Positions 838 to 52,309 of a DNA stretch of 64,000 nucleotides are shown in pieces. A program made the translations under genes and the position numbers. The notes under the pieces were generated by a model, which saw only the letters and a list, made by a program, of their open reading frames with translations, searched no databases and was not told the origin of the DNA. This DNA comes from Mesostigma viride (lineage: Eukaryota > Streptophyta > Mesostigmatophyceae > Mesostigmatales > Mesostigmataceae): contig RPFO01000065.1 in NCBI GenBank assembly GCA_009746045.1, positions 7,139,210 to 7,203,209 of the forward strand, written 5' to 3'. Position 1 is the first letter of the stretch, and each line of letters opens with the position of its first letter.

Positions 838-1417
838 CGAGGGGAAGGACGGGGGAGCACCAGGGGGAGGGGCACCAGCAAGCACCGGGGGTATGGCGGG
901 CGGCAGCAACGCTGGAGCGAAAACCCAGCAGCAGCAGCAGCCACAGCATCAGCAGCAGCAGCAGCAGCAGCCGCGGCAGCAACAGCAACAGCAACCGCAG
1001 CAGCAGCAGCAGCAGCAGCAACCTCAACCACAAGCGACTGTCGCTGTAACACAGCGACCCAGGTTTGATGCATCCCGTAGGGAAGATAGGATTACCTTCC
1101 CAGGTCTAGCTGAGGGGTTTGTGCAAGAGGATGCACTTGAGTTTCTTTTCAAGATAGAACACTCATGGTCCCATGATAATATCCGTGATTGGTTTCCTGC
1201 TCTTAGGGTGTCTAACACGATCCACCAATCTGCACCTAGCATAAAACAAATGGTGCAGATGTATGAGAGGAGGGCAAGCACGCCTGGGGCAGATGAGGTG
1301 CAAATCTTCACAGAATTCATAGCAGACCTAAAAGGGCTCTTGACCAAGGGGGAACACCTGCAGGCTCTCAAGGGGTTCACATGGTTGCATGGCTTCATAC
1401 AAAGTCAACAAGTCTGA
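563..1417 (+). CDS. Copia gag-like protein with polyglutamine tract
   Basis: This 284-codon frame has an N-terminal helical segment, a Gly/Pro-rich linker, a long polyglutamine block coded by CAG/CAA repeats (about 929-1030), and then a conserved-looking segment (about 1060-1410) with the aromatic/acidic pattern of LTR-retrotransposon capsid domains. It overlaps the following ORF (starts 1389) in another frame, which could be a programmed or mutational frameshift. The role as structural gag is inferred from position and composition. Confidence 0.5.
   Translation: MSVFALAQTHPTPTPTPKHTMQTDTDLELDRIAALLHQELDAAEANPTKRARAAEAIEQLLRAAKRVRQGKWQEGCGPSSTFQRSHPEEDGDEGKDGGAPGGGAPASTGGMAGGSNAGAKTQQQQQPQHQQQQQQQPRQQQQQQPQQQQQQQQPQPQATVAVTQRPRFDASRREDRITFPGLAEGFVQEDALEFLFKIEHSWSHDNIRDWFPALRVSNTIHQSAPSIKQMVQMYERRASTPGADEVQIFTEFIADLKGLLTKGEHLQALKGFTWLHGFIQSQQV
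929..1032 (+). repeat. CAG/CAA microsatellite coding for polyglutamine
   Basis: Runs of CAG with interspersed CAA, CAT and CCG codons lie inside the gag-like ORF. Confidence 0.85.
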
Positions 1418-3353
1418 CTACGTACGGGACAACAAACAGTATGTCCTGTACATAGACAGGGACGAAGAGTTGAAGAAGCTCAACTCTAAGTACCTGATCC
1501 ATCAGTGGCTCACCAAAGCCGAGTTAGACAAGAACACCAACGCAGTTCTGCTGGCTGGCCTCAAAGACAAGTGGGATGATTTTAGGGGGGCCATGTTGTT
1601 CATTCAGCAGAGCCTAGAACCCTTCTCCACTGTCAAGGAACCCAAGGTTAACAAAGTCCAAGGGGGGGGTAGTCAGGACGGTGCAGGGCCTAGCAGGAAG
1701 AAGCTCATCAAGGAGGTGGTAGCTCAGGTCAAGGCGGTGTTCAAGGGTCCCCAGCAAGGTAAGAAGGCAGGGGGGTCATCCAAACAGCAGGGAAAATCAG
1801 ACAAGGGGGGAAAGGGGAACACAGGCAGTAAGGCAGGGCCCTCTCAGGGGCCTAGTCAAAAAGGTAAGCCTCACGACTCCACCCTTTACTGCACCAGGTG
1901 CTCATGCAAGGGGCATGAGAGGGTTGACTGCTGGAAGGGCAAACCCGAACTTGGATCTGATGTGGATGTGTGCCCAGGTTGCTGGGAGCCCCGCCACCCG
2001 TTACCTGCAGGGGGACGCTGCAACAAGCCCAGGAAGGGAGCCTCGACGGGGCGCACCCCAAAACAAGCCAGCACTCAGGACGACTGTAAGTCTCCTGTAC
2101 CCTGGTTTCTTAATGGCCGTGTACCCTCTATTTGCTCTGTATTGCCTGACAGTGAGGACGTGGATTGGGACCTGGCTTATGACATGACGTTAGCACAGGT
2201 GGCCCAAGACCCCACTATAGCCTCCTTAGATGCAGCAGCAGATAAGGTTATATCCTATGCCAGGTTAGCCCAGCAGCTACACAAGGCAATGGGGCATGAG
2301 GCAGTGGCAGAAAGGCTGGCCAATAAAATTGATGGCCGTGACCTGGAACAGATGTGCAGGCATGTCAGGAAGCACTGTGAAGCGTGCCAACTGCATGCAC
2401 CTAAACCCAAGAGATGGCATGTGGCCACCCCACCACTGGCTAGAGGAAAGCTAGTAGGGGATGTGATACACCTGGTGAAGGACACGGTGTATTACTTGGT
2501 CCTAAAAGATGCCTGGTCTAGGTTTGTTGTGATAGAACCCTTGCCAGGCATGGCCAATGAACAACTGCACAGAGCCCTGCTGATTGCACTAGCACGGTAT
2601 CATCCTCAGGAAAAACTAATGCTGGATCAGCAGTTCACGTGGATACAAGATTATCCTGATCTGCCCAAGATAGACATTGCTGGGGCTCAAGATCATGAAC
2701 GCCAGGGGATGATTGAACGTACCATGCGTGCTATCAGGGACCTCATAAAGAAAAATGAGTCCAGGACAGCAGAGTCTGGGAGCTATGCTGATAGGACAGC
2801 GTGGGCAGCTGAGGTGTGCAGAACTCTGAACACCAAACCACTCATGTCTTCTCCTTTTGGTGAAATCACACCAATTGGCCTGCAATCAGGTAGCTACTCT
2901 CAGGAGGTACTAGACCACTACAACACGCAAAGGCAACACTTGGCCAAGTTGCTGGCAAAAAAGGATAAAAGTAATGCCAGGCCTGTGTTTGAAGTGGGGG
3001 ATCAGGTACTCTACTATAGGGAGGGGGAAGGGAACAAAGCCCACTCTGGTAGATGGCATGGTCCAGCTGAAATCATCAGGTTGTCAGAAACAGGTGACAC
3101 GGTGACTATTCAGCATCACAGAGAGCGAATGGTTGGCAAGCATAGACTGAAGCTTTATTACCCTCCTTTGGCAGACGTGTCAGGGGTAGAATTCTTGGAC
3201 ATGGATTCAGAGCCTCAGTCTGGTGGGTTGGTCTCACCCAGTGAACTGGCCAGGGACATAGCTGATGCAAGCAACACAACCATAGAAGCTCCTGTGTTCC
3301 TCAGTGTCCATCTTCCCAGTAAAAGTCCTAAATTTAGGACCAAGTGGAATTAA
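1389..3353 (+). CDS. Copia gag C-terminus with CCHC knuckle plus integrase
   Basis: The 654-codon ORF has a zinc knuckle CTRCSCKGHERVDC (CX2CX4HX4C, about 1889-1932) followed by a second Cys/His-rich segment. An integrase follows. Its HHCC zinc site is seen at about 2280-2397 (HKAMGH, then CEAC). A D,D,E core follows, with Asp in GDVIH, Asp in LMLDQQF and Glu in GMIERTMR. A C-terminal part contains RWHGPAEII, as in other retroelement integrases. No protease lies between the knuckle and the integrase, where copia elements normally have one. The last three codons and the stop come from the inserted segment that starts within 3322-3342, so the original ORF was longer. Confidence 0.8.
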   Translation: MASYKVNKSDYVRDNKQYVLYIDRDEELKKLNSKYLIHQWLTKAELDKNTNAVLLAGLKDKWDDFRGAMLFIQQSLEPFSTVKEPKVNKVQGGGSQDGAGPSRKKLIKEVVAQVKAVFKGPQQGKKAGGSSKQQGKSDKGGKGNTGSKAGPSQGPSQKGKPHDSTLYCTRCSCKGHERVDCWKGKPELGSDVDVCPGCWEPRHPLPAGGRCNKPRKGASTGRTPKQASTQDDCKSPVPWFLNGRVPSICSVLPDSEDVDWDLAYDMTLAQVAQDPTIASLDAAADKVISYARLAQQLHKAMGHEAVAERLANKIDGRDLEQMCRHVRKHCEACQLHAPKPKRWHVATPPLARGKLVGDVIHLVKDTVYYLVLKDAWSRFVVIEPLPGMANEQLHRALLIALARYHPQEKLMLDQQFTWIQDYPDLPKIDIAGAQDHERQGMIERTMRAIRDLIKKNESRTAESGSYADRTAWAAEVCRTLNTKPLMSSPFGEITPIGLQSGSYSQEVLDHYNTQRQHLAKLLAKKDKSNARPVFEVGDQVLYYREGEGNKAHSGRWHGPAEIIRLSETGDTVTIQHHRERMVGKHRLKLYYPPLADVSGVEFLDMDSEPQSGGLVSPSELARDIADASNTTIEAPVFLSVHLPSKSPKFRTKWN

Positions 3354-5062
3354 ATAATATATATGCAAACATTAAAATTTGACCCTGGCATTCGTGCCCA
3401 TGACAGATAACACACTTTTTTAGTTTCTATCAAAAACCTGGGGTCAAATAATTACATTTAGTGCATGAATGGGCCCTGCCACCTGCCAGACCTCAAAGCG
3501 CGAATTTGGCCAAAATGTGGGTTTTAGGACCATTAGGACCAATTATTGTCAACGCATGACCATGCTATCCACACGGTCCCTTGAGCATCTTACAAGCGCT
3601 AGGGGACCCTACGAGGCCTTGGGATGGCGGGGCAGCGTATAACAAGGCCATACCCTGCTGTGGCTGCCTCTATATATACGCGTGATTAACGGTGTCACAG
3701 ATGGTGCAGGTAATGCAATATAGGGTTGCATGGTTGCTGAGGTTGCCCGGCTTGAACATGGCCCACCCCTTGCGGTAAACTTTCTCTAAGCATATGCCAA
3801 ACCTTCTTTGACATCACGGACATGCTGGCCACCACCCAGCGATGAAAAAACATTGCATTTGCATTGCAACTAACACATGAATGCAGCCAAATCAAGTTAC
3901 AAAACAACGTTGTGCTAACATGCAACGCTTTGTGAGCGAATTCAGGGTGCATGTAACACGTAAACCATACTGTATATACTGTCTGAGAACACCCTGAACG
4001 ACTGCAGGCCATAGGACCATGGTTTATAACTAACACATGAGTAAAACTGCTCTTACGCATGTGTGTTTTAGCTGCAGCGGACGACAAAGATAGAGACGTA
4101 AAAAATTGTATGACGTAAACCAACTATGTGTGACAGTTATGTGCACAGAGAGCGTCCCCTCTTTTTAGGCATAGCTGGCTGACTCAAAACACCACGACAG
4201 CGTTGCCAGTTACACTCATGATCTAGGACAACCCGGCACTTACCTGCTACTTACGTCGCCTCATTCCAGATGGTTGCAAAAAAGTCGCTGAAATCCGCAG
4301 CGAGGTCAGCTTTCCGAGAGCTGAGCGCACCAAAGCTGGCCAACCGGTTCGACAATGATATAAACCACGCTTGTGCTGCGTTCTAGGTCCAAGAAATACC
4401 GAAAGTGAAGACCTATAAGGTGCGCTCGCTGCCCAGCCTGAACGTCCCTAAAACATGGTCGACAATGGAAATCGGGCAAGAATATCACGGCCCAGGCGCT
4501 CCCATGTCAAATACTCCGTTTCTAAACTCCATACTATAATAAAAATCGTCCACAAAAATTTCCTGGCTTGATTCGCACCACCATTGCTAATACACTAACA
4601 TGTTTGTGCCAAAATCGACCCTCCGCGAGCAGGCGATCTGCGACCCATTTGTGTTGTGCCGCTGTGCTACAGCGCTACACATAAAAACTTGCGCAGAAAA
4701 TATTCACAGCCTTTAAGCATAACTAACAACCTTTCGTTTTTGCTACTGGTCGCCCGAAATGATAAATGCACGTGAAAACGCCGGCCACGATTGTCAGGTC
4801 GCCATATCCACCTCACTTCATTCCCGCACCCACTTTTTCGCTCCAAAATCGGTTATATTTTTGGTCGAGGTACCTACTTTCCCGCCATTATACCCGGTAC
4901 CCGGGTACGGAATCCGGGTACCATGTGCCGGTACCACGGGTCGGGTACATCATGCCGGGTACGGTCCACATGGGGTACGGTCCATATAGTGACCCCCCCC
5001 CCCGGTACCTCGGTTATAGTGACCACTAGGACGATTTAGGACAAAGTCCTAAATTTAGGACC
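3322..5062. mobile_element. 1.7-kb insertion in the copia pol, bounded by a 20-bp direct repeat
   Basis: The 20-mer AAAGTCCTAAATTTAGGACC occurs at 3322-3341 and again at 5043-5062. Copia-like coding stops just after the first copy and linker-like coding resumes just after the second. The interior (3342-5042) has no recognisable gene. It includes AT-rich DNA, TAGGACC motifs and, at 4895-5010, a cluster of GGTACCCGGGTAC-type palindromes. The repeat may be a target-site duplication or part of the element's termini; its core is itself palindromic. The frames on the two sides do not join exactly, so one later indel is assumed. Confidence 0.55.
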
Positions 5063-5173
5063 GTGGGATGATTAACATCAGTGGTGCAGCCCCACCACAG
5101 CCCAATGGTCCATCTGGGCAGGAGGAACGTGCACTGGATGAGCAGCAGGTCGCTCCTCTCTCATCTCAGGAAC
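5063..5173 (+). pseudogene. Copia pol linker remnant between two insertions
   Basis: A short open stretch reads as a Pro/Gln/Glu-rich linker (for example GAAPPQPNGPSGQEER, 5075 onward) and ends in SSQEP at the left edge of the CACTA-type insertion. Removing that insertion and one copy of its 3-bp duplication joins it in frame to the PR-RT ORF. Confidence 0.5.
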
Positions 5174-5760
5174 CACTACATTTCGCCGCCTAGGACACCT
5201 TTTTTAGCGGGGAATGTGGGTCGGTCAAGTAGGGGAAAACGGTGGCAGGTCTCCGAGCGTCAGATACTTGGAAATTTCGTTACGTTCGTATCGAGAGTAG
5301 ATTTCTGACAATTTTCCTCGTTCGGACAGAGCCACAGTGAATATCAGCATCCGTCCAGTACCAAAGCATGGACCTAGCAGAAATTCCGTCAGACATCTCG
5401 GAAGTAGCAATTTTTAGTATCGAGCGCACTTGCGCTAGTGTTCAGTACGAATTCGGCCTCCGTCAGGTCAGCAAGCGGCGTGGGAATATACTGAACTGAA
5501 CAAAACGGTGGACTGTACTAAGAAATTCGTACTCAAATTTCGTCATCGGAATCGGAGGGAAATCTTCGACCAAGGACTAGAGATTTCATCAAATTTTCAG
5601 AACTGGCCAATTGATGCCAAATGGCGCGATTCTAGATAACAAGTGTTGCTTTACTGGTATCCGACGGTGCCGAACTTCGAAATTGAATTTGTAACCCCCG
5701 CCGTATTGACGGAACCACATTCTCGCATAAATTGGGTTTCCGCGGTGGCGAAATGTAGTG
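5174..5760. mobile_element. CACTA-type non-autonomous DNA transposon (587 bp)
   Basis: The left end CACTACATTTCGCC (5174-5187) is the exact inverse complement of the right end GGCGAAATGTAGTG (5747-5760). The inverted match continues imperfectly for 3 more bases. The flanking triplets AAC (5171-5173) and AGC (5761-5763) fit the 3-bp target duplication of CACTA/EnSpm transposons with one substitution. The interior has no transposase. Excision in silico restores an open copia frame, which supports the boundaries. Confidence 0.75.
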
Positions 5761-7949
5761 AGCCACAAGTAGCAGCAGATCCTGTTGTCCCCAGGAATAA
5801 ATTTGCTGAGGCTCTAAAAGCTCTACACAGAGCACACACTGCCAAGGCACAAATGGCAGCAGGTGCAGCACAAGTCAATGCTGTGGGTGAATCTGACCAG
5901 GATCCCAGTATTCTGGCAGTAGACACACAGGCACAGGTGAGCATCATCAGTGCACAAGCTGTATCTGGCCTAAGTCTGCAACGCTCGCCCTGGGCTAGAG
6001 TGTCAGATTTTTCAGGCAAAACAAAAATGGCAGTCAAAGGCCAAGTGCTAATTCCCATTCTGGGTGTGCCCACTCCCTTCCAGGTAGTAGAGGGCTACAA
6101 GGGGAATGCACTGCTGGGGGAACCATTTGTCTCATACCCTGGAGTAGTCATCTCAGCTGGGAGGTTGAGTGTGACTGGGGTGGGGCAGGTCACCCTGGAC
6201 CATTTTAAAATTCCTTTAACACAGATCAGTGATGGCCTGGAAGCAGCCATCAATGCTGTCAACATAAAATACCTCCCAGGTCAGGAACCCTGTGTTGACT
6301 CCCTCATTCATTCTCAGAAGTTACACCCCTCTGCGTTTGGGCTTGGTAGATGGGACATAGCGTCCATGTCTCCCTTGTCCTATGATGATGTGGTCAAAGA
6401 CTGTCAAACGCAGATTGGTTTTCTGAAATGGATGGAAGCCTTTAACAGGGCTAGAGAGGAATGGGTTTGTCCTGATCCACGTAGCAAGTCCCAGGTACCA
6501 CCTGTAACACCGATTGAGGCACTGCCACAAGGGGCCAGAAAGCTCAGACTGAAGTTTGTCTGCAAGCATAAACCCCAGGCAGATGGGACACCTCCCATTT
6601 TTCATGCCAGACCTTGTGTCACGGAGTTCAGGGGCTCCACTGAGCTAACAGAGGCTGAGCTGTATACCCCTGGTATTCAGCAGACGTCTCTTAAGGTCCT
6701 GTTGGCCACTTTCCTTCACCATCTGAATGCTGGTAAGGACTACGTGTGTAAAGCCACTGACATTAAACGAGCCTTCCTTAAAGGCAACCCTGACATAGCC
6801 CAAAAGGTGTGGAGGGGTCAAGTCTATGTGGTAAACACTCCCAAAGTCTGGTCTGGGGACATCAAGGAACCTCATTTAAGGCCCAACTTGGGGGTAGAAG
6901 GGCTTCAGTCAGCACCTAAAATTTTCAGGTTGTCAGCCCAAGAGGTCTTCCTGAAGCTGGGGGCCCAGTATGATGATATTGACCCTTGTTTCTTCACCAT
7001 CCCTCATCCTGCTGGTATGATGATGTTTGTGTGGCATGGGGATGATCAGCTCATTACTGGTCCCAGGGCAGCTGTGGAGGATTTCATTGCTCAAGTGTCT
7101 GCTAGCTTTGAATTAGGCAAGCAGCTGGAGCTGGGGAAAGACCCTGTCAAGTTCTGTGGCATCATTCTGAACCTGTTTAAGGAGCAGAAGGAGTGGGTGT
7201 GTTCTCTCAAAGCATCCCCTGAGTATGTCATGTCTTGCAAGGATGTTCTTCCCTCTGACATCACTCCTGATCTCTGCCCCACTATTAGGGGTAAGCTAGG
7301 TTGGCTATGTGCCACTTGTGCTCCTCATCTGGCCGTGGTTAGCAGAGTGGATGATGATGTTCTCATGGAGGTAGGGTCTAGGGCTATTAAACAGGTGTTA
7401 CATGATGGTCCTCCCCTTATTCTTCATGCCTTGGATCTGTTCCAACCCATTCACATCACATGCATGATGGACAGTTCCATGGAGTCACGGGTAGTCACTA
7501 AGGTACAAGCCAGAGAGGCAGGTCTCTTTATGTTGTCTAACCCCACTGGCAAGCAGTCTTTGGTTTCCTGGTTCAGTAGACTCCACAAGCGCAAGGCAGT
7601 CAGCAGCAATGTAGCTGAATGCCGTGCTGTGGTATCTGCTGTGTTACATGCCAGGTACTTGAACCATCTGCTGGTGTGGTTGCAGCATCAGGCTGGTAGT
7701 TATGCTGGTGTCAAATCCCATCTGCTGACTGACAGTCAATCCCTTCTCTCTTTCCTGGACAACCCCTTGGCTGTGCACACCGATTTGGACTGGATTGTCC
7801 TCAAGCAGGAGTGTACCTATCTGGAGTCCAAGACTCACATCCGAGACCCTGACAATGCAGCAGACGCACTCACAAAAGTGCCACAGGCTGCAGGGCCTCA
7901 GTACAGAGTCCTATACAAGCTGATGAACCCATACAATGGCAGAGGGTGA
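5761..7949 (+). CDS. Copia retropepsin-like, reverse transcriptase and RNase H polyprotein part
   Basis: The frame is open from 5643, but the first ~40 codons are CACTA-element sequence. From 5761 it codes a retropepsin-like segment: AVDTQAQVSII at 5917-5949, where DTQ replaces the usual DTG/DSG and may make it inactive, with ALLGEPF downstream at 6109. A copia-type RT follows, with KATDIKRAFLKG at about 6751-6786 and the polymerase box FVWHGDDQLI at 7027-7056, where HGDD stands for YVDD. The RNase H domain has SSNVAECRAV at 7602-7631 and a late LTDSQSLL. The C-terminus, with DPDNAADALTK, is typical of the family. The protease lies after the integrase, an order not usual for copia elements. 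Confidence 0.85.
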
Positions 7950-8786: not shown

Positions 8787-9455
8787 TTATGCCAGCCATT
8801 GCATAATCCAACACACGTTCGCATCCATTTGCACGAGTGCATTAACTATCTTATTATCCTGGTGCCAATCTAATCCTAGTAATACATCAGCGGTAGTGAT
8901 AGGGCCTATAGTGGCCGTCAGGTTGACAGTACGTCCTTGTATAACCATGGGAAGGGACACCGTACCCGGGGAATGACTGGTGCGACCATCAGCATAATGA
9001 ACAGTAACGGGTTTGGTGTGAGGGGTAGGGACTAGTCCTAAACGTCTAACTAGGGCCTCGCTCACAAAGGAGCTAGCCGCACCGCTATCTACCAACACAG
9101 AGACATTCAAGAGTTCATCAGCATGCAAGAAGGGGTCTACAACAGTGTGAGGGACGGTTAAACCACCATTCAAGAACATAAGAGGACGCACACGTAGTGG
9201 TAGGGATGATTCAGCTCCTACAGAGGTTATAAAAACAGGCAAGCAAAAATTAATATCTGGGGTACTATCTAAGGACCTGTCCAGGTTACCCCCGGCTGAC
9301 AGGCCTACTGTTCCCCCTCCCCCCCAAATCCATAGGAACGAACCCCGAAGAAGACCCTGGCGGAAAAGCCACTGCTGGAGGGTCACGAGGGATTGAAGAG
9401 GGTGCGGGAGCCTGATTATCATAGGGGAACCCTGGGGATCCTGTCTGCACAGCAT
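8787..9455 (-). pseudogene. Gypsy retropepsin-like protease fragment
   Basis: From about 9240 downward the frame codes a retropepsin fold. The active-site motif VLVDSGAASSFVSE (about 9060-9101) is followed by a glycine/hydrophobic flap region and then DVLLGLDWHQ (about 8867-8896), the usual second signature of gypsy proteases. The first ~70 residues overlap gag in another frame and are probably not all translated. The frame ends soon after the protease where RT would normally begin. Confidence 0.7.
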
Positions 9456-11034
9456 TCAGCCTACTAGGGGTAGCTGAAGGAATGCGTCCTGAAGTGGGAC
9501 GAATAGGAGCACGCTGAGGGGTACGAGGAGGGCGAGCGTCGGGATGAGGGGGAGCACCCGAAAGGAACTTGGGGCATTCACGTTTAAGGTGACCTACTTC
9601 CTTACAATGATAGCAGGTAATATGAGAGACATCCAGAGCTGAAAGGTCAGTCACACAGATATCTAATTCTTCTACATAGGAGTTTTCCTCCTCAGGGGTA
9701 AGGCTTATATTATTAATACGGGAACGGGTAGGAAGAGAAGGTGTGGAGAAGAAATCTGCTACTCGTAAAAGATGCTGACGCACATGCTTGAGGGGCAGGT
9801 CAGTAAAACGGTAGGCAGAGAACTGGCGCTTGACTTCACGCAATAAGGGTCTACTGAGGCCCTGAAGGAAGCGAGCACGTACTTCTGCACCCGACAAATC
9901 CCTAATTCGTACCATCTGAGCATCAAACTCTTTCATATATTCTTTGAAGGACTTGGTACCCTGCTGCAAGGTGCCAAAGGATAATCTATCCTGCCAATCT
10001 GCATCGGGAGGGACTAAATGGTTCTCTAAACGCTTGAACAATTCTGCTACAGAGTTTGGGTAGGCATGAGAGGCAAGAGACTCACACTGGATGAGGTTAG
10101 CAAGTTCAGGAGTAATGCAGGTAGTAAGATAATGAGGAACTAGTACAGCATCAGAGAGGCGCCACCTATTGTGGTTCTGCCAGGACTCTGTGTTCTGGGT
10201 GAGCAACATAATGAAGGTGAAAAACTGTTGAGGGGTAGACTTGACATCCAGCTTAGGAAGGTTGGCAAAGAGGGGAAGAGCAGGAGGCTTAGGGGGATTA
10301 GAAGAATCAGTTTTTCCCATAGGGCCACTATCTTCCACTGCTACATAAGCGGGATAGAAGGAAGGGATAGGAAAAGTCTTGGGTAGGGGTCTAGAGGGAG
10401 CCACCGTTTCCGGATGGTGCCCATAGGAGAAGGGGACAGTATATTGCTCACGAAGAGAGGAATAGGCAAAATGATCATAATTCCTATCATCTAGGGGCAT
10501 GGTACTGAAATCATTATTAACTTCTAAATCAGCCACACGGGTAGGAACCTGGGCAGCCTCATAGGCCGTCTCAGGGTAGGACCAGGAAGCAGGTGGGAAA
10601 AAGGGGACTGCACTAGGGCGCCCAGAAGGGCCGACAGGGGCCGAGGTACGACCCGTGTTAATAGCAGGCATTGAAGGCACAGGGTGGGAAGGAGGCCTAG
10701 GAGCATTGTTAGTGTGTGAGGACCTGCTGGAGGGGTGAGCCAAGGTTGCAGAAGGGGCAGGGGCCTGGTTCACAACGAAAGAAGGTTCCTCACTAAATCT
10801 GACTTGGGAAATACGTTGTTCATAGGTAGGTGGGGTAATTGAGGGACGACGGCGACCACCAGCAACAGGAGAAGGCGGTGAGGTACGCAGAATACCTTGA
10901 GGAGTGAGATGGTGTACCGTTTCCAAGGAGTCCCGTCGGTTACCACGAGTATTGTTATTGTTAATGTTATTAGTAGTAGTATTATTATTATTATTGGTAG
11001 GTATAGGCGACATATCTCCACCCACTGGATCCAT
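9286..11034 (-). CDS. Gypsy gag polyprotein with CCHC knuckle
   Basis: The 582-codon ORF has an Asn-rich N-terminus coded by ATT/GTT-type repeats on the plus strand (about 10945-11000), a Pro/Ser-rich linker, and a capsid-like domain (about residues 240-400) with PQQFFTFIMLLTQ, DWQDRLSFGTL and ARFLQGLS patterns typical of Retrotrans_gag. It ends with the knuckle CYHCKEVGHLKREC (CX2CX4HX4C). The domain series and the downstream protease identify it as gag. The ORF itself is uninterrupted. Confidence 0.8.
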   Translation of the reverse strand: MDPVGGDMSPIPTNNNNNTTTNNINNNNTRGNRRDSLETVHHLTPQGILRTSPPSPVAGGRRRPSITPPTYEQRISQVRFSEEPSFVVNQAPAPSATLAHPSSRSSHTNNAPRPPSHPVPSMPAINTGRTSAPVGPSGRPSAVPFFPPASWSYPETAYEAAQVPTRVADLEVNNDFSTMPLDDRNYDHFAYSSLREQYTVPFSYGHHPETVAPSRPLPKTFPIPSFYPAYVAVEDSGPMGKTDSSNPPKPPALPLFANLPKLDVKSTPQQFFTFIMLLTQNTESWQNHNRWRLSDAVLVPHYLTTCITPELANLIQCESLASHAYPNSVAELFKRLENHLVPPDADWQDRLSFGTLQQGTKSFKEYMKEFDAQMVRIRDLSGAEVRARFLQGLSRPLLREVKRQFSAYRFTDLPLKHVRQHLLRVADFFSTPSLPTRSRINNISLTPEEENSYVEELDICVTDLSALDVSHITCYHCKEVGHLKRECPKFLSGAPPHPDARPPRTPQRAPIRPTSGRIPSATPSRLNAVQTGSPGFPYDNQAPAPSSIPRDPPAVAFPPGSSSGFVPMDLGGRGNSRPVSRG

Positions 11035-11127
11035 CTTTAATTACGTAAAGGAATAGGAATCAAAAGAAGAAAGCAACAAAAGAAAAAGGAAAAACCTTGA
11101 AGGTCTGCAGCAGGAACAAAATTAAAA

Positions 11128-12967: not shown

Positions 12968-13008
12968 AGGAAGAAGAAGAAGACGACGACGAAGACGACG
13001 ACGACGAA

Positions 13009-13100
<92 letters not shown>

Positions 13101-13221
13101 AGACGACGAAGAAGAAGAAGAAGAAGAAGAAGAAGAAGAAGAAGAAGAAGAAGAAGAAGAAGAAGAAGAAGAAGAAGAAGAAGAAGAAGAAGAAGAAGAA
13201 GAAGAAGAAGAAGAAGAAGAA
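12968..13221. repeat. GAC then GAA trinucleotide microsatellite (left part)
   Basis: A (GAAGAC/GAC)n run to about 13108 is followed by uninterrupted (GAA)n to 13221. In one plus frame it would code an Asp then Glu tract after SGEEEEEDDDED. The array stops at the first base of the terminal inverted repeat at 13222 and resumes at 20029. Confidence 0.95.
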
Positions 13222-13745
13222 CACCGGGAAGGGGGGTGTGACATTTTGTGATATTTTGTGACATATCACGTGACATTTTGTGATGTGGATGTGACAAAAT
13301 GTGACATTTTGTGATTTTTTGTGACAAAAGTGTGATATTCTGTGACATTTCGTGACAAATCATGTGATAAAACCAGCATATTCTGTGATTATCTTTGTGA
13401 CAAAAACAAGGAAATTATCACAAAATATCAATGTCACGACTTGATAAAACGCACTGACAAAATCCGTGACATTATCACTGATATATCACGAAAAAAGGGT
13501 GACAAATCCGTGACATTATCACGAAAAAAAGGGTGACAAATCCGTGACATTATCACGAAAAAAGGGTGACAAATCCGTGACATTATCACTGATATATCAA
13601 GAAAAAAAGGGTGACGAAATCCGTGACATTGTCACTGATATATCAGGAAAAAAAGGGTGACAAAGCCGTGACAATGTCACTGATAAATCTAGGGAGAAAA
13701 CAGTGACATAAAACCACGGGCGATCATGACATATCACACAGATAT
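13222..13745. repeat. Left terminal/subterminal GTGACA-TGTGATA array
   Basis: After the terminal repeat, GTGACATTTTGTGATATTTT-type motifs recur to about 13370. Then come five ~40-60 bp units (about 13440-13690) containing CCGTGACATTATCAC, GATATATCA and AAAAAAGGGTGACAAA. Confidence 0.85.
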
Positions 13746-14309
13746 ATCAGAACACATTCCAAAGCAAAACGGATGAAAAGCACAGCTCGCGATTTCTTTA
13801 TTACAAATATAAAGATAAATGTAACAGATCTTCATTCTTCATTCTTGATTCTTCATTCTTCAACAGTGATTATCGATCAGTGACAATTTGCAAACGCCGG
13901 CTTGGCGCTTGTCGTTGCGTGACAGAAATCTCAGAATGTTCCTGGAATGCATTAAAAAACGCACATGCGCAAGAAACATTAACGGATGGTTGGTGTCAGT
14001 TGTCTCATCTGCCACCGCACCCTAGAAAACCAATTCATGAACAAGAAAGCGCTCGATATAGATCAAGAAAACAAAAACAAACCTGCACAGTCATGGCGCC
14101 TAGATGACGATGTTAAGTGGACGACGACGAGGAGGCCGGCACCTTGTCTCCCTGTGAGCAGAAAAAAAAAGGCAAGTTTGAACACTCAAGATTTGTCATA
14201 GCCTTTCACAGCCTCGATCAATAGAAATGCACATCAAAATCAATGTGTTGCCTAGAACATCCTTGAATGGGTTTCAAGAACAGCAAGGCGGCCTCCCCCG
14301 CCCGCAAAC

Positions 14310-14590
14310 TCATAATCCCAGTGTTTACAACCCCCTCATGAGGGGGTTGTAAAATTGCAATCAGTCATTAAAAAAAAAAAAAAAATCCCAGTTTCACACA
14401 CTGCCCACTCATAAATAATCCCAGTTTCTGACAGCCCCCGCTCAGCCCACTCATGAACAACCCAGTTTAGACCCCCCCCACTCATACACTATCCCAGTTT
14501 CCCACAGCCCCCACTCAGCCCACTCTGACATTAACCACCCCAGTTTAGACACCCCCTCTCATGAATAAGCCCAGTTTCCCACAGTCACCT
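14310..14590. repeat. Degenerate C-rich tandem repeat
   Basis: Recurring blocks of ATCCCAGTTT, CACAGCCCCC(A/G)CTCAGCCCA and CTCATGAA, about 65-75 bp per pair of blocks. It is preceded by a short AACCCCCTCATGAGGGGGTT palindrome (about 14330-14350). Confidence 0.7.
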
Positions 14591-14664
14591 GAGAAACCGC
14601 GCAACCTGGGGTCAGTCAGGTCAGTCACAGCCGGTGCGGCGCTAGATTACAATACCGGTCCGAT

Positions 14665-15560
14665 GTAGTGTAGTGGGGTGGGTGGGTGGGTGGGTGGGGG
14701 AAGGGGGGGGGGGTTCCCCCTCCTTTGGCGGGTGTCAAGGGGGACATTGGTAGGGGTTGATGATTTAGTAGTTGTGGAACGCAGTTGTAAATGTGGGTAG
14801 CTCGTGCGTAGGTCACAGGTTCGTGTGAGGGGTGGGGATGCTTGGGTTGCCGTGGTGGCTTGCCTATGGTACGTAGGTGCCTGAATACAGTGGTGGGCAG
14901 GTGCACTTCGTGCACCCAGAGCAGGTGGCAGTTTACATTCCCCCACCTGCAAGAAGTAGCCAAGAGTGTATTAAAGGCCATATGCCCCTTCTCAGGGCTA
15001 TGTGCTACATATACTCCCAACGGAGTTATGTTCCTAATTAATTAATTAATTAATGGTACGTAGGCGGGCTTGGCGATGGTCTATGCAGCAGGGTCAGTTA
15101 TGGTTGAGTGGACAAGGGGTTGGTTGCCCCGGAGGCCGGGGTGGGCGGGGTTGGTTATGGTTCATGTGGATGGTGGGGTGGAGTCATCGTATATTAGGGC
15201 AGCGGGGGGTGGGGTCACTGGGCGGGGTGCAGTGGTGTAGGGGAACCTCGTTGTGGGGCGGGTGGTTGGTTTAGTGGATGGTTTGCGATGTTGGTGTGGA
15301 ATGTGGTGGAGGTAATACGGAAGGGTGGTAGTCACATAGGTTGGCTAGGGGGACTCAAGGTGGATGGTCGGGTGGGTCAGCGTATGGTTTGGGGAGGAGG
15401 GCAGTGTATGGTTTGGGGAGGAGGGCGGTGTTACGGTGTTGTGGGGGACCTCAGGGTGGGGGCGAGAGTGGTCCGTAGTCAGGGGGGGATGGATAGCGGC
15501 ATGTGGATGTCCGTAATGTATCTTTGTGGGTGGGGTGGGTATGGAACAGGCAGGGGAGTG
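14665..15560. other. Strand-biased G/T-rich stretch
   Basis: The plus strand is strongly G-rich, with GGTGGGTGGGTGG runs and GGGGAGGAGGGC duplications (about 15390-15430), interrupted by retroposon B1. The ORFs here are Gly/Trp-rich on one strand and His/Pro-rich on the other and are compositional artefacts. No gene is seen. Confidence 0.6.
14866..15064 (+). mobile_element. TSD-bounded short retroposon with (TAAT)n tail (copy B1)
   Basis: The 12-mer ATGGTACGTAGG flanks the insert (14866-14877 and 15053-15064). The insert ends in CTCCCAACGGAGTTATG-type hairpin sequence followed by an AATT-repeat tail (about 15034-15054). Length ~175 bp. The duplication plus simple-repeat tail is the signature of target-primed reverse transcription. 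It shares only the CTCCCAACGG hairpin element and the tail with copies A1-A4. Confidence 0.75.
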
Positions 15561-15639
15561 GGGCGAGTGGGGATTAGCAGGGTGGAGGGTGCTGGCATTG
15601 TGGCGGGATGGTTGGAGGCACATGGACACACATAATGGC

Positions 15640-18600
15640 AAGAGTAACTGCATGCATAGCAACATGGGACCAGCTGTTCCGAGAACATCTGAAACCCTCA
15701 CCATGCAACAACCAACAGCAACCAGCAACTGCCAACAGTGACAACGTTCGCAAGATGTGACGCCAAGGCCATTGGAGATCCTGATGTAATTTCGGGGGGT
15801 TCCTAGTCCTGCCGTGTACTTAACTTAATTCAGGGCCGCACACTTCGTGTGGTGCAGTGGTGCAGCAAGGGCTCATGGCCGGTATGGTGGTAGCCGGTAG
15901 GTGAAGACCTTGCTGCGAATCGAGGGCGTGATATTGCATGGGAAAATGATGCCGAGAGTCTCAGGGCGTCTCGCGTGGTGACAGCTGCAGCGTGTGGGCC
16001 GAGGAGCTCGAGATGCAGGTCTCGTCGGTACATGTGGGCCACTGGAGAGGGCGCCAATGTGATGGAGGCCTTTCCATCGTGCCAGTTGGACATCACTCAA
16101 CAGCCAAAGGGGCGGCTGCATTGGCGGTGGGGCTAGAATTCTGGTAACTGCACAGAATTGACCCAAGAAAGCTCGAATCGCGGGCATGGGCAGGCAAGGT
16201 AAAAGAGGGAAACATTGCGCCAGCGGTTGAGGAAAGATGGCCTGTTTACAGTGCTGGGCCTCAGAAGGAGTCGAGGCGTCGGCTCAGTTGGCAGGGCGAC
16301 GATAAGTCTGTCAAAGCTGCGCATGGGTGGCGCAATGAGAGCTCATTAGGAAGGTCTCGCGCAGGAGGTTTCGATAGGCTAAAATTTTTCTCAGTCCTCG
16401 AAGATTAGGCGGGTGAAAATCGTAAATCCGCCATAGCCGCCATTTAAAAAATTTTCCCGCTTTCCATGGGATATACTGCCTAGCCTTACAGTAGCCAAAT
16501 GGATTTGCGTGCGCCTCAGTCCATGCACCTAGTCGTTCGCCATCGGTTTCGGCGCAATATTTGAATTTTGCGCAAGGATCCTGACGGGTTGATTCCAGAC
16601 TTGCGCTTGTTGCGAAAGATTATTGATTTATTGTCCATTCATTCCAGACTCCCAAGCTAGGGGCCGCCGTCGACTGTAGTCTGAACGGTACGGCTAACAG
16701 TTACGATGCCAGGCCAGCAGCAAGCGGTCAAAACCAAGCGATACTAGAGAGTCATGTCAGTCGTCTTTTTACTGGTTTCGTCAGTCAGTTATTCCTCATG
16801 TATGTCAAACTACTTCTACTCGGAGAGATATGTAGTAGCGGCGAAATCGGAAGGGGACGTGGGCAGGGGGGGGGCGGGAAGTACGACTGATGCAATATAC
16901 CGTACGTTAGTTATCGTCACAAAGCGAGTGACTGACGATAGTAAAGGGCCTCTAATGACGACAGTGATGACGATAGTATTTGGCACTGATGAGTGATGAC
17001 AGGAAGAGCGATGACCCCAAGTTACCAGACTTTGCGACGTTGATGAGACTTAGCGAATTGCGAGCCCTCATTCCAGTGGTTGCGCGGGTGTTACCGTTGA
17101 AGTTGAAGTTAAGACGACGCGAAAAAAAAAATTACTTGACTTGAACATCTATCCACGCTGCACAGGTGGGAAAGGTGGAAGGGAGCTGCGATCGGCTCGC
17201 AGCCAAGGCGGGATTATGTGCCTTTTGATTTCCAGCAATGTCGCTTCTGTATGAACGCACGTGGTGGTTGGAATAGGAGCATAGGCTCACTGATGACCGT
17301 CGTGATTTATGTAGCCATTAGGGCGTCGTCTTAAATGAATTCAGGAGCGAGCTCGGACAAGGCTACAAGCAGCCATCGGGGGAGAAACATAGGCATGGTC
17401 TGGAATAAAGCTTTAATCGATCTGTTCGCTCAGTGGTAGGCACAGCACATTCGGACATCCAGAAGCTGCCCACTCTTTACCAGTTGAGGTGAGCAAGGAA
17501 TTCCTCGCCTGAAATTCTAATAAGTTTGCATCGACTTTAACATGCATGCCGTACGCACGTGGCATTCTCACGTATCGCCCTAGGGCCAAGGCTGCTATGG
17601 GCCGCTCGGTTTCATGCCAAGTTAGCCGTGCTTGCCATGAATGCTGCAGCAGTTTCACTATCTCATTCGTACAAGGTCAATAGACTATGCAAACGACATC
17701 CGATTTAGTTTTCATGAAGGGCATAACCTTGTTCAGATTGAGAGTTGCATGACATGGGCTGCTCTTGCGCCACTTTCCTTGTCTTAACCTACTGATTCTC
17801 TGTTTATGCTTTCGGTCGTTATACATTCGTATGTGTGCATCTGTGTTGCCATTGTGGTGTCAATTTTGCGCGTGTACTTGTGATGCCTGATACCGTTGGA
17901 CTTGCACGCGGCCCCATCGCATGTGGCAGCGACAAGCTCTTGGTCACCTGTCCAGCGCGGCGAATTCTTGATGGTGAGCAACGGTGATCATTCTTTATGT
18001 AGTGCTCATTCCTCAAATTATCAACGTGCTGTGCGTGTCAGCCACCATTGGCCTTGTTCTTCCAGCTTCAGTGCATGATTTTTTTGTAGCCCGCTGGTGA
18101 TGCTCTGAGCTACAAATAGTTTGCATTATTTGTACCAATTCCTTCGCTGTCGGTAGAATCTTCTTTGCAATCCAGTAGCCTTGGTTGACATTCATGGCAT
18201 TGCTGGACTATATCTCGCTTCCTTGCATGGGTAGCATCTTTGCATATTTATCCTTTTTGCTCAGATCACAGCTTTTTTCATTCCCTCCCCCCCGCTCCCC
18301 ACCCTGAACGACTCCTGCTAGTGTCAACTGCAGACGTAGAGCCTTCAGCCTCGTTAGAGTTCATCCTACCTGTAACGGGGCATATTGTTGGTTGATTGGC
18401 CTTGCATTTTCTTGGCACTATTCAGGCGTTTCTTTCTTATTGCCGTATTAACCATACAGAGATTGCAATGAAGTAGATTGTGAGGCCTCTTGGCATGTTA
18501 GGGAACCTTTGCGACTCCAGGATTTCTGGGTGTGCAGTTCCCTACAACTTGTGAGGCATGTAGATACAATTTAGGTGAACATCTATGGCCAATTTTTTTT

Positions 18601-18830
18601 CTCGAGCACCCCTGTCTCTCTCTTGGCCCAGTATCTCACCTTTCTTTGTCCTAAAATTAGGCCGGTACTCATAGATAGCCACGCAACTGCTGCGATCTCC
18701 CCCGCATCCTTACATACAAGTGAACTGAAGTCATGCAAAGTTGTTGGCACGTCCAGCGCGTAGCGTTCATCTCACTAACAAATTTTTGTGTGTACCGATG
18801 CGTGCTTTGCCGGATGATGTATTTTTGTCT
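15640..18830. other. Interior of the 6.8-kb TIR element without recognised genes
   Basis: Only short ORFs in mixed frames. No transposase, RT or helicase motifs are visible on either strand. Composition is less biased than at the flanks. Confidence 0.5.
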
Positions 18831-18839
18831 TGCATGCAG

Positions 18840-19080
18840 GCAATATACCTAACACAGTCGGGCCGGGCACATCCGTCAGTCCAACACGGCGAGAGGCCAC
18901 ATGCGGATGCAGATTTTGTAGGCTCTGAGCCTTCAATGGTCACATTGCCGTAGCACTCGACAGTGTCCTGTGATTGTTTCTAGAGAGTCATCCAGTTACT
19001 TCAGCAATGGTGGCTGGGACAGCCCTCGTGATGGTTTCGGTGATGATGAGGATGATGACTTTGATGACGAGGACTGTTGA
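18840..19080 (+). CDS. Possible 3'-terminal exons of an unrecognised gene inside the TIR element
   Basis: After an AG at 18839, a frame of 38 codons runs to a TAG (about 18840-18953). After an AG at 18995, a frame of 27 codons ends in an acidic tail GFGDDEDDDFDDEDC and TGA at 19078-19080. The second looks like a genuine acidic C-terminus. No upstream exon could be linked and the family is unknown. It may be a captured host gene fragment or chance. Confidence 0.22.
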
Positions 19081-19734
19081 GCCCCGTTGTACTTCTCGGT
19101 CAACAGATTTTATATTGCATTTGTGAGATGATTGTGGGTGTCCATTTTGCACACCACCCACAGCCATGCTTGAGTGCACCGTTCCTTGTGTGTGTATCAA
19201 TACAGTTTGTGTTCGTATTTGATCAGTTGTGCCATTTCATCGGGTTGTTGCATGCCATCTGAATATGTTCACTCCCCGTTGCCATTTTATCATACTAGTG
19301 TTGTGAGCTCAGAGCAATGGATGCATGATGCAGTGTTGTGATTCAGTGTAGATATTGACGATTTTACCTTTGATCAGCACGATGGATGCTTGGCCAGCGA
19401 TGGGTCGGAGGTTGACACTTGATGACCGTGATGATCATTGCCCTGAATGTTCAATATTGGTGTTTTTCTTAACATCCCAGTCGATATTTTTGCAATAAAC
19501 CATGTCTCCCATGGCTCATGACATTGTGGTGCATTTTATCATGCACCTGAGAGTGTTTCCAGCTTGTTTTGTCAGTTCCTTTCAGTACGCTTGCCCCGTA
19601 CCGCTGCACGTGTTGTCTCTCCTGGCATTGCCACCGTGTCGTGTCCCACCTTGGCCTTTTCCTTCTCCGTCTCTGCTGCGGCACGCACTTCCTTGCTGCG
19701 GATGTGCATTATGCGTGCTTTGTGATATATCACT

Positions 19735-20028
19735 TCCCCTGAGTGGTTGTGATTTATCATCTTGTCACATTTTGTTTTTCTGTGGGTTTGTGACATTTTG
19801 TGACACTTTGACATTTTGTGATAGTGACGTTATCACAAAATATGCTGGTTTTATCACGTTTGTCACGTTTTGTCACAATCATGACATGTCTCGATCACAA
19901 TTTGTCACAGTTTTATCACATTTTGTCACATTTTGTCACGTTTTATCATTTTTTTATCACAAAATGTCACAAAAGTGACATTTTGTGATAAAAAAATATC
20001 ACAAAATGTCACAGACCCCTTCCCGGTG
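19735..20028. repeat. Right subterminal/terminal GTGACA-TGTGATA array
   Basis: TTTTGTGACATTTTGTGACA and TATCACAAAATGTCACA motifs in alternating orientation could form cruciforms (19960-20012). The array ends with the terminal inverted repeat ...CCCCTTCCCGGTG at 20028. Confidence 0.85.
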
Positions 20029-20814
20029 AAGAAGAAGAAGAAGAAGAAGAAGAAGAAGAAGAAGAAGAAGAAGAAGAAGAAGAAGAAGAAGAAGAAGAAG
20101 AAGAAGAAGAAGAAGAAGAAGAAGAAGAAGAAGAAGAAGAAGAAGAAGAAGAAGAAGAAGAAGAAGAAGAAGAAGAAGAAGAAGAAGAAGAAGAAGAAGA
20201 AGAAGAAGAAGAAGAAGAAGAAGAAGAAGAAGAAGAAGAAGAAGAAGAAGAAGAAGAAGAAGAAGAAGAAGAAGAAGAAGAAGAAGAAGAAGAAGAAGAA
20301 GAAGAAGAAGAAGAAGAAGAAGAAGAAGAAGAAGAAAGAAGAAGAAGAAGAAGAAGAAGAAGAAGAAGAAGAAGAAGAAGAAGAAGAAGAAGAAGAAGAA
20401 GAAGAAGAAGAAGAAGAAGAAGAAGAAGAAGAAGAAGAAGAAGAAGAAGAAGAAGAAGAAGAAGAAGAAGAAGAAGAAGAAGAAGAAGAAGAAGAAGAAG
20501 AAGAAGAAGAAGAAGAAGAAGAAGAAGAAGAAGAAGAAGAAGAAGAAGAAGAAGAAGAAGAAGAAGAAGAAGAAGAAGAAGAAGAAGAAGAAGAAGAAGA
20601 AGAAGAAGAAGAAGAAGAAGAAGAAGAAGAAGAAGAAGAAGAAGAAGAAGAAGAAGAAGAAGAAGAAGAAGAAAGAAGAAGAAGAAGAAGAAGAAGAGAA
20701 GAAGAAGAAAGAAGAAGAAGAAAGAAGAAGAAGAAGAAGAAGAAGAAGAAGAAGAAGAAGAAGAAGAAGAAGAAGAAGAAGAAGAAGAAGAAGAAGAAGA
20801 AGAAGAAGAAGAAG

Positions 20815-20844
<30 letters not shown>
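20029..20844. repeat. (GAA)n microsatellite, about 0.8 kb (right part)
   Basis: Almost pure AAG/GAA repeats with single-base slips near 20333, 20672, 20698, 20708 and 20720, so no frame runs through as one homopolymer. It joins directly to coding-like sequence at 20845. Confidence 0.97.
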
Positions 20845-21366: not shown

Positions 21367-21713
21367 GCATTTACATTAATTAATTAATTAATTGAACTCG
21401 TGCTCCCGTTGGGGAGTCACGGAGCACCGAAGTGCTTTTAATCCCTGTGTGTGCACTACAGGAGAAAGGGCAGAGACCCCCAGTCTCCTTCATGCCAAAG
21501 GCATGCCACAGCTGCAATCGGGCGCGGCTAGCTAAAAGGACAGGCTAACGATCCGGCAAACTGTGGGTGCAATAAGACCCATGTGAGCATATTATCATAG
21601 CAAGGAGCGTGGGCAAGTAATCTGAACATAGCCAGGGCGTAGCATGGCTGTACTAGAACTAGGCTAAGGCTATGGCTGGTTGTGTACCGTGCGTTGGCGG
21701 CACGCATTTACAT
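21367..21713 (-). mobile_element. Short retroposon with (TTAA)n tail and 10-bp TSD (copy A1)
   Basis: GCATTTACAT occurs at 21367-21376 and 21704-21713. Read on the minus strand, the ~327-bp insert ends with a hairpin (GTGCTCCGTGACTCC then AACGGGAGCAC) and an AATT-repeat tail next to the left duplication. The same sequence recurs at 46874-47250, 49047-49284 and, as a 3' fragment, at 55729-55790. No tRNA-like box A/B promoter was evident, so SINE versus 5'-truncated LINE is open. Confidence 0.85.
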
Positions 21714-26751: not shown

Positions 26752-44998
<18,247 letters not shown>

Positions 44999-46862: not shown

Positions 46863-47260
46863 ATATGGCATTGCCGCTAAGGCAGCCATGCCTAGAATGT
46901 TGCCTAGCTGTGCCAACACACCTAGTCACGTGCCGCCAACGCACGGTACACAACCAGCCATAGCCTTAGCCTAGTCCTAGTACAGCCATGCTACGCCCTG
47001 GCTATGTTCAGATTACTTGCCCACGCTCCTTGCTATGATATGCTCACATGGGTCTTATTGCACCCACAGTTTGCCGGATCGTTAGCCTGTCCTTTTAGCT
47101 AGCCGCGCCCGATTGCAGCTGTGGCATGCCTTTGGCATGAAGGAGACTGGGGGTCTCTGCCCTTTCTCCTGTAGTGCACACACAGGGATTAAAAGCACTT
47201 CGGTGCTCCGTGACTCCCCAACGGGAGCACGAGTTTAATTAATTAATTAATATGGCATTG
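46863..47260 (+). mobile_element. Retroposon copy A2 (plus strand)
   Basis: Same sequence as A1 on the opposite strand, ending in the hairpin and a TTAATTAATTAATTAA tail (47234-47250). ATATGGCATTG occurs at both sides (46863-46873 and 47250-47260). Its 5' end extends ~55 bp beyond A1. The left duplication is ambiguous because TATGGCATTG is itself repeated nearby at 46849. Confidence 0.75.
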
Positions 47261-49036: not shown

Positions 49037-49294
49037 TATCTCTAATTAATTAATTAATTAATTAAACTCGTGCTCCCGTTGGGGAGTCACGGAGCACCGA
49101 AGTGCTTTTAATCCCTGTGTGTGCACTACAGGAGAAAGGGCAGAGACCCCCAGTCTCCTTCATGCCAAAGGCATGCCACAGCTGCAATCGGGCGCGGCTA
49201 GCGAAAAGGACAGGCTAACGATCCGGCAAACTGTGGGTGCAATAAGACCCATGTGAGCATATCATAGCAAGGAGCGTGGGCAAGTATCTCTAAT
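49037..49294 (-). mobile_element. Retroposon copy A3 inserted in the Helitron ORF
   Basis: TATCTCTAAT occurs at 49037-49046 and 49285-49294. The ~238-bp insert is a 5'-truncated version of A1, tail to the left. Removing it with one duplication joins QERISN to DPDRAGQR in one frame, so the site is precise. Confidence 0.93.
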
Positions 49295-50235: not shown

Positions 50236-50448
50236 TGGCATTGCCGATGGGCCTTGCCCAACAATGGATGACCCCGACGCTCCGTTGCCATCCTCAGGCG
50301 CAGTAAGGGAGCCCGCACTTGCACTAGAAGCGCAAACCATCCAACGCATGTTCGTTAGACGACCTCAGGGGCGAGCCTAGGCAGGCCAGGCATGCAGGAA
50401 ATGAGCCCATAGCATGCATGGCCTGAGCATGGCCAAGACCCGATCAAC

Positions 50449-50934
50449 GAGTATAACCACGAAGGTTATTTCTCAATGGCGTTTCCAACACTATTCCCCT
50501 ATGGGAAACCCATCCTCGAGGGATCCGCTGAGCATCCGGCTCATCCATGGGGTTGCGCACTACACTCGGTGCGCGTTATTACTGTTTCAATGTCCGAGTA
50601 TATGCGCCATTTAATGATGTACCGCGACGGTCGCTTTGCCCAACATGCTCGCTTCCGATATGCTGCATTGAACACCGTGATGAGGTGGCAAGCAATGAGT
50701 GTATCAAAGGTATTTGTTCGTAGGAATTGCCCGAACCTTAGCTTTGAAGAACTAAAGCAACGTATCGAAGCAGGAGATGTGTCTGTTGTCAACCAACTGC
50801 TCCGCTGGGGTGGCGTCTTGCGTGGCACTCCGCAATATTGGGCGAAAGAACGGAGCAGAGCATCCGCATTCCTTTACTTTCACCATTTCTTTTACGACAC
50901 AATGCCAACTTTTCTACACTACCTCAGCTGCTGA
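50449..50934 (+). pseudogene. Helitron_like_N domain fragment
   Basis: EYNHEGYFSMAFPTLFPYGK (50449-50508), then a domain with QLLRWGGVLRGTPQYWAKER (50788-50847), is diagnostic of Helitron helicase-like N-terminal domains. Coding passes into the 50777-52042 frame near 50840-50860. Confidence 0.85.
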
Positions 50935-52190: not shown

Positions 52191-52309
52191 GCCAAAACGT
52201 GGAAGCAATGGTACGCCGCTCGGCCAGCCGACTTAGAGGAGGTAACTTTCTATGAGCTTGTGGCACAATTCAACAAGGAATACAGTGGGCGCAAGGTCCG
52301 TTAGCAGTC

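Follow-up and report, generated by a model that had tools for sequence, protein, structure and literature searches.

Transposons of the CACTA superfamily (En/Spm in plants) bear the pentamer CACTA at their termini as a signature. They move by cut and paste, with the TnpD/TNP2 protein acting at the terminal inverted repeat (TIR) and TnpA binding the subterminal repeats (PMC8195511, PMC4158355). Plant members are described as having CACTA or CACTG ends and 3-bp target duplications (PMC10741241, PMC4158355, PMC8195511), and families with shared ends and unrelated middles are on record (PMC8195511). The element analyzed here occupies positions 13222-20028 of a 64,000-nucleotide stretch of the Mesostigma viride genome, referred to in full as the window, and ends in CACCG. 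Mesostigma (Streptophyta, Mesostigmatophyceae) belongs to the earliest-diverging streptophyte lineage.

Several other groups are relevant for comparison. The TRC branch of CACTA elements, found in animals and fungi, includes SmTRC1 of Schistosoma and TRC of Aedes (PMC1636069) as well as Spongebob of Hydra (PMC4298943); for SmTRC1, a 2-bp target duplication was recorded in 7 of 14 copies (PMC1636069). Plavaka elements have duplications of 2 or 3 bp and termini of the TGT..ACA or CATCA..TGATG type, fungal EnSpm elements combine CAC..GTG ends with a 3-bp duplication, and the duplications of KDZ/Zisupton and hAT elements measure 7-8 and 5-8 bp, respectively (PMC12730594).

The window element is interpreted, with a probability of roughly 0.88, as a recent insertion of a CACTA/EnSpm transposon of M. 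viride that is non-autonomous, is present in high copy number, and moves by cut and paste. The original prediction of a transposon with a partner elsewhere in the genome is supported by four kinds of evidence: paired ends, 2-bp duplications, empty sites, and TNP2 domains in elements with a sister TIR. The element and its insertion site are as follows:

13222..20028, plus strand: probable CACTA-type DNA transposon of 6807 bp, non-autonomous, with CACCG...CGGTG ends and near-identical copies elsewhere
13222..13257, plus strand: left TIR, 36 bp, 34/36 identical to the right end
19993..20028, minus strand: right TIR, 36 bp, 34/36 against the left end
13220..13221, no strand: left copy of the 2-bp target duplication (AA), its length set by other copies and ambiguous in the window alone
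20029..20030, no strand: right copy of the 2-bp target duplication (AA), its length set by other copies
12970..13221, plus strand: target, GAC/GAA tract left of the insertion
20029..20844, plus strand: target, GAA tract on the right side; G000:C1713 and G000:C1635 are related loci without the element

The match of 34 of 36 positions noted earlier was obtained again when 13222-13257 was compared with the reverse complement of 19993-20028. Both ends stop exactly at the edge of the GAA tract, at 13222 and 20028, as had been described, and the junctions read ...GAAGAAGAA/CACCGGG on the left and CCCGGTG/AAGAAGAAG on the right. Elsewhere in the window, an ungapped scan with the left 36-mer reached at best 23/36 on the minus and 22/36 on the plus strand. 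The window element and its subfamily have CACCG...CGGTG termini rather than CACTA...TAGTG (or CACTG).

The genome searched was an assembly of 440 Mb in 2243 contigs, in which the window is C1468:7139210-7203209. Matches to the left 379 bases were scored at 40 of 196 candidate places, a lower bound: 29 were 98-100% identical, one 96%, and ten 93-95%, seven of these ten being of the CACTAG type described below. Among 20 matches that were fetched, 18 contained the right end, the exceptions being L024 and the short stretch L015; the copies with both ends measured 6763-6881 bp in 16 cases and 8177 and 8636 bp in two. The exact 20-mer TIR pattern CACCGGGAAGGGG occurs at 66 ends in the genome and its reversed control at none. 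These ends form 27 inward-facing pairs less than 20 kb apart (22 of them 6.6-6.9 kb), with 12 ends unpaired and no wrong-orientation neighbors within 20 kb; one pair, of 17.1 kb at C2145, spans the end of another copy. The anticipated further copies, with ends in inverted order and distinct flanks, are present elsewhere in the genome. Divergence among 16 aligned copies, including that of the window, is only 0.01-1.19% (0.01% between the window copy and L014), which indicates that the family spread recently.

Some members of the CACCG family are longer. L031 holds a run of N, and other inserted sequence is present in L032, L024, L029, L023, and C335. The extra DNA of L024, L029, C335, and L032 (1.95 kb) contained no transposase domain at a Pfam E-value of 0.01 or lower; its sole Pfam match was an RNase D HRDC profile in L032, below the cut-off. 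On the basis of these scanned parts, which take in neither the N run of L031 nor the inserts of L023 and leave aside 0.9 kb of insert in L032 as well as the unfetched CACCG pairs, the longer copies were set aside as candidate autonomous elements. An open reading frame (ORF) in the L024 insert looks reverse-transcriptase-like by eye and has no Pfam match. At L033 (G000:C1:10684580-10688579), a 34-bp TIR piece directly precedes a long ORF of GIY-YIG- and Penelope-like appearance as judged by eye, and a stretch of L033 sequence is also inserted in L024. TIR matches in two bacterial contigs had nothing in common beyond the pattern and are likely due to chance, and viral contigs gave no match to the pattern.

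The sister family, with CACTAG ends, provides the link to the CACTA superfamily. When up to three mismatches were allowed in the TIR, 189 ends were found (control 0), and many of the 100 listed read CACTAGGAAGGGG. The exact CACTAG pattern gave 111 ends (control 0); among the 100 listed, there were 44 inward pairs, 37 of them of 7.4-7.7 kb, 12 unpaired ends, and no wrong-orientation neighbors within 20 kb. Alignment to the CACTAG copies L036 and L037 gave identities of 92-93% for the first 1.37 kb of the window element and of 93-97% for element positions 3303-6802; its middle shows no match above 50 bp. The CACTA signature termini are present as exact CACTAG in this sister family and in three transposase-bearing TIR pairs, and it is through the termini of the sister family that the superfamily is identified.

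Subterminal repeats represent a further CACTA/EnSpm feature of the element. The repeats, built on GTGAY (GTGAC or GTGAT), and the other internal repeats are:

13237..13370, plus strand: outer left subterminal array, 13 forward GTGAY motifs, 10-12 bp apart, mean 10.5
13455..13737, plus strand: inner left array, 33- to 46-bp units with GTGAC...TATCAC pairs, indel-rich among copies
19722..20014, minus strand: right subterminal array, GTGAY motifs chiefly in reverse orientation and often spaced by 9-11 bp or multiples
13364..13389, plus strand: inner block GTGATAAAACCAGCATATTCTGTGAT, left copy, once per end
19832..19857, minus strand: inner block GTGATAAAACCAGCATATTTTGTGAT, right copy, inverted relative to the left copy
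14387..14584, plus strand: internal tandem repeat of 73-bp units, which are more numerous in L036 and L037 of the CACTAG sister family

With both strands counted, GTGAY occurs 38 times in 13222-13800 (579 bases) and 23 times in 19700-20028 (329 bases), whereas 1000 simulations gave means of 2.1 and 1.2 and maxima of 8 and 5, respectively. This enrichment far exceeds the simulated maxima and bears out the claim that each end carries an array of the same motif in both orientations. CACTA/EnSpm elements have subterminal repeats of 10-20-bp units in both orientations, and the arrays agree with this, the first 13 left units being 10-12 bp apart. In the outer left array, successive steps from 13238 to 13364 are 10, 10, 12, 10, 11, 10, 10, 10, 11, 10, 10, and 12 bases, and at their mean spacing of 10.5 bp the motifs would all face the same side of the helix. 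On the right, the steps between reverse motifs from 19853 to 20008 measure 9-11 bases or roughly double or triple this distance. The inner blocks share a 19-base core, GTGATAAAACCAGCATATT, at 13364-13382 (plus) and 19839-19857 (minus), which is absent elsewhere in the window at up to three mismatches (expected 0.02). A TAAT run was also observed inside the transposon, at 15034-15054.

No transposase had been seen in the window element, and a six-frame Pfam scan of 13222-20028 agreed, returning no domain at E-values up to 1. Rfam gave no match at gathering thresholds, and no TET/JBP domain was present in the frames scanned of the window element and of L058, a 10-kb stretch at contig C143. One reading frame at about 18967-19077, ending ...SSSYFSNGGWDSPRDGFGDDEDDDFDDEDC-stop, is unchanged in 16 of 16 aligned copies. 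Its coding score of 9.3 lies within the range of shuffled sequences (maximum 9.8, 30 shuffles), and the CACTAG sister copies differ from it by at least three residues.

A TNP2-type transposase, as presumed for an autonomous partner, was found in elements with sister ends. Profile PF02992 (Transposase_21), which describes the TNP2 transposase of CACTA elements, was matched at least 150 times in the genome, with 150 of 239 candidates scored, and not once in 14 control genomes. The CACTAG right end at C143:10609 has a PF02992 match 3.5 kb inside it. In L058, the PF02992 exon (E=1.2e-27) is followed downstream, in the same direction, by a DUF4218 (PF13960) exon (E=6.4e-7), the transposase coding region being spread over exons, and the right end (CACTAG) is 94% identical over 337 bp to that of L036. 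Moreover, PF02992 lies inside exact CACTAG pairs at C1457 (14,776 bp), C1724 (12,457 bp), and C1813 (14,208 bp), with a score of 97.0 bits in all three, equal to that of the C143 match. The distance from right end to PF02992 is 3523 bp in C1724 and C1813, 3528 in C143, and 5466 in C1457. As for a second protein (TnpA/ORF2), the opposite-strand L058 ORFs of 276 and 294 amino acids had no Pfam match at E-values up to 0.1. A query read through introns, with a length rule applied, returned no relatives of the L058 transposase among proteins, and no solved structures resembling it were found. The PF02992 matches also include further near-identical groups, for example a large one at 60.2 bits and another at 98.0 bits, which suggests that the Mesostigma genome holds additional recently active CACTA families.

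Taken in this setting, the window element very probably moved in trans. A TNP2-type transposase, perhaps together with a TnpA-like protein, would recognize the outermost 13-36 bp of the element together with the GTGAY arrays, which are phased with the helix and form a putative binding platform. The ends would then be brought together, the element excised and inserted at a 2-bp staggered cut, and the window copy may have entered the GAC/GAA tract by this excision-insertion route. The 12.5-14.8-kb CACTAG elements are the likely source of the enzyme. Although its terminal pentamer is changed at two positions, the CACCG subfamily is probably served by the transposase of these elements or by a close relative of it.

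An unlikely alternative, though the one that survives best, is that the CACCG subfamily is moved by a separate autonomous CACCG element with its own transposase instead of by the CACTAG TNP2 elements. The altered pentamer is present at both ends of CACCG copies, which would suit such an arrangement, as would the isolated CACCG end at C1945:485089 (L034), where the TIR is similar over 65 bp and the GTGAY subterminal sequence is otherwise different. However, the CACCG and CACTAG families are 92-97% alike in their shared parts, both ends included, and no transposase domain occurs in the window element or in the scanned extra DNA of L024, L029, L032, and C335. The L034 locus (G000:C1945:485089) was also noted for itself: it is an isolated CACCG-type left end whose subterminal sequence diverges beyond 65 bp, and it possibly belongs to a third related family.

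The length of the target duplication provides the next line of evidence. The window alone fits 1, 2, 5, 8, 11... bp, and other copies had to decide. The count covered 21 CACCG copies with both ends (the window, L011-L014, L016-L023, L026-L030, L031, L032, and C335); L025, which has the left flank of L026 and a shifted right end, was omitted, as were L015 and L024, which have no right end. A 2-bp direct repeat is present in 17 of the 21, the window included, and in all 11 CACTAG pairs examined, while 3 bp fits one CACCG copy (L016) and none of the 11 CACTAG copies. At 1/16 per site, the chance of such matching is 1e-16 for a 15/17 subset and 6e-14 for 11/11. L011 and the window fit longer duplications as well because they are located in repeats. 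Of the 2, 5, or 8 bp originally proposed, with a constant length expected in other copies, only the first stands, since 5 and 8 bp do not fit in non-repetitive flanks.

The duplicated dinucleotides include TG, CA, GG, CC, CG, AA, GA, TT, TC, and TA. This variety is incompatible with the TA-specific duplication of Tc1/mariner elements, and the 2-bp length in unique flanks with the 5-8 bp of hAT elements. Visual inspection of the 20 other CACCG copies placed about 17 of them outside simple repeats, the adjoining repeats being CAG at L011, a short tandem repeat at L030, and GATC on one side of C335. Strict microsatellite targeting was rejected on this ground, and GAA tracts do not characterize the target sites, as judged by eye over these 20 copies. 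An earlier idea that the acidic GAA/GAC tract forms part of a gene was dropped, as the right-flank ORF has no protein match.

Empty sites, which had been predicted, were found for L029 and L014, together with two loci related to the window's own site. The query consisted of the joined flanks of 15 copies, with one duplication removed in the 13 having one, and two unique pieces of window flank; the best 40 of 7331 candidates were scored. The joined flanks of L029 are intact, with 100% identity over 121 bp, at at least 36 places, where a single CG stands in the position of the two at the insertion, in direct support of insertion with a 2-bp duplication. Those of L014 were matched at one place (92%) among the best 40. 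At C1713, both window flanks align as one 500-base stretch (83%), and at C1635 a gap of 47 bases separates the right flank (93%) from the final 47 bases of the left one (89%). Given these identity levels, C1713 and C1635 are related, probably paralogous, sites without the element.

These observations also bear on the possibility of a 5- or 8-bp duplication made by an element of the KDZ (Zisupton/Kyakuja/Dileera), hAT, or P-like kind. KDZ/Zisupton and other 8-bp superfamilies were first considered on account of the AAGAAGAA flank; 2, 5, 8, and 11 bp all fit in the GAA flank of the window, and Zisupton duplications measure 8 bp (PMC12730594). Nevertheless, such an origin is very improbable: where flanks are non-repetitive, only the 2-bp length agrees with them and neither 5 nor 8 bp does, an identical empty site has one CG in place of two, and the transposase linked to the sister TIR is of the TNP2 type. 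Spread of a satellite or segmental duplication by recombination or assembly errors might be suggested by the long subterminal arrays, the GAA tracts, and contig pairs sharing one flank (L013/L015, L025/L026), and the arrays would then be expected to form an ordinary satellite that lacks paired ends and empty sites. This reading is refuted and has next to no probability: the terminal base is the same from copy to copy while the flanks differ, and both 2-bp duplications and empty sites are present.

Several points weigh against the interpretation of the window element as a non-autonomous CACTA copy mobilized by TNP2. Four of the 21 CACCG copies lack the 2-bp duplication: L018 and C335 have altered left termini, L028 has none, and L023 has only a 4-bp match. 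The predicted transposase-bearing copy was obtained in part, as PF02992 within CACTAG pairs, and no autonomous element with CACCG ends was found. The 10 kb of C143 that were covered (L058) contain no left end, and the C1457, C1724, and C1813 elements are known here from the TIR pattern and PF02992 positions. Moreover, nothing in the window element clearly derives from the transposase exons of L058 (the TNP2 exon reached a tblastn E of 0.098 at best), so it looks unlike a simple deletion product of the L058 element and the partnership rests on the shared ends; a 294-residue L058 ORF outside the transposase exons gave a tblastn E of 0.001 in it. Movement of the element was not observed.

Other features of the window were noted as well. 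Copia-type pieces (RVT_2, with an integrase below the cut-off) and a retrotransposon ORF of the gag/zinc-knuckle kind lie near the insertion, at 1344-7946 and 9289-11040. A dispersed repeat of up to 326 bp, by appearance a short interspersed element with a TTAA/TAAT run at one end, occurs at 21375-21704, 46929-47251, and 49045-49286, its copies being 98-99.6% identical. An interstitial array at 35720-35822 consists of units resembling TTTAGGG, the plant-type telomere repeat. Helitron remains at 50413-53159 (plus strand) include Helitron_like_N and PIF1 helicase domains, and an ORF for a Core-2/I-branching enzyme (Pfam Branch) lies at 56369-58372 (minus strand). The 553-residue translation of 56369-58027 (minus strand) is 100% identical to a EukProt Mesvir1 protein, a second Mesvir1 protein being 89% identical. 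Mesvir1 is taken to denote Mesostigma viride, in agreement with an origin of the window in that species or a very close one.

The Mesostigma genome paper gives an estimated size of 329 Mb with 38.7% repeats, and the terms CACTA, EnSpm, and En-Spm are absent from its main text (PMC7027972). Among the matches listed from open-licence PMC literature, no earlier description of this Mesostigma CACTA family was found. The element had been put forward as an undescribed transposon; within that literature the family and its terminal variant are new, and the superfamily is a known one. The importance of the finding is moderate and lies in the history of CACTA elements rather than in a new type of element. 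A recently amplified CACTA family with 2-bp duplications makes the time of origin of the plant 3-bp staggered cut testable. The CACCG subfamily suggests that the CACTA pentamer, which is used to define and mine these elements, is dispensable for spread, and searches keyed on CACTA and 3-bp duplications would miss it. Additionally, the evenly phased GTGAY array offers a clean substrate on which the binding of CACTA proteins to subterminal DNA could be studied.

The combination of CACCG termini, a 2-bp duplication with a plant-type transposase, and a 10.5-bp-phased GTGAY array is unusual. It may be tentatively proposed that CACTA elements of this early-branching streptophyte join land-plant features (CACTA ends, TNP2 with DUF4218) to a TRC-type 2-bp duplication, so that the 3-bp stagger of land plants would be a later change, and that one subfamily switched to CACCG, with a matching transposase preference, and was amplified recently. 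Compared with plant CACTA (En/Spm) elements such as the non-autonomous LsC1 of lettuce, the Mesostigma duplication is 2 bp, not 3, and the window subfamily ends in CACCG instead of CACTA or CACTG. Plavaka and fungal EnSpm elements, members of a CMC-related group, share the 2-bp duplication (Plavaka) and the CAC..GTG ends (fungal EnSpm), but the termini of Plavaka differ, the duplication of fungal EnSpm is 3 bp, and the Mesostigma frames scanned show no TET/JBP domain. The likeness to the TRC branch includes membership in the CACTA superfamily, the 2-bp duplication, and paralogous empty sites as evidence; unlike the Aedes and Hydra elements, whose TIRs begin with CCC, those of Mesostigma begin with CACTA or CACCG, and TNP2 with DUF4218 is present at the linked locus.

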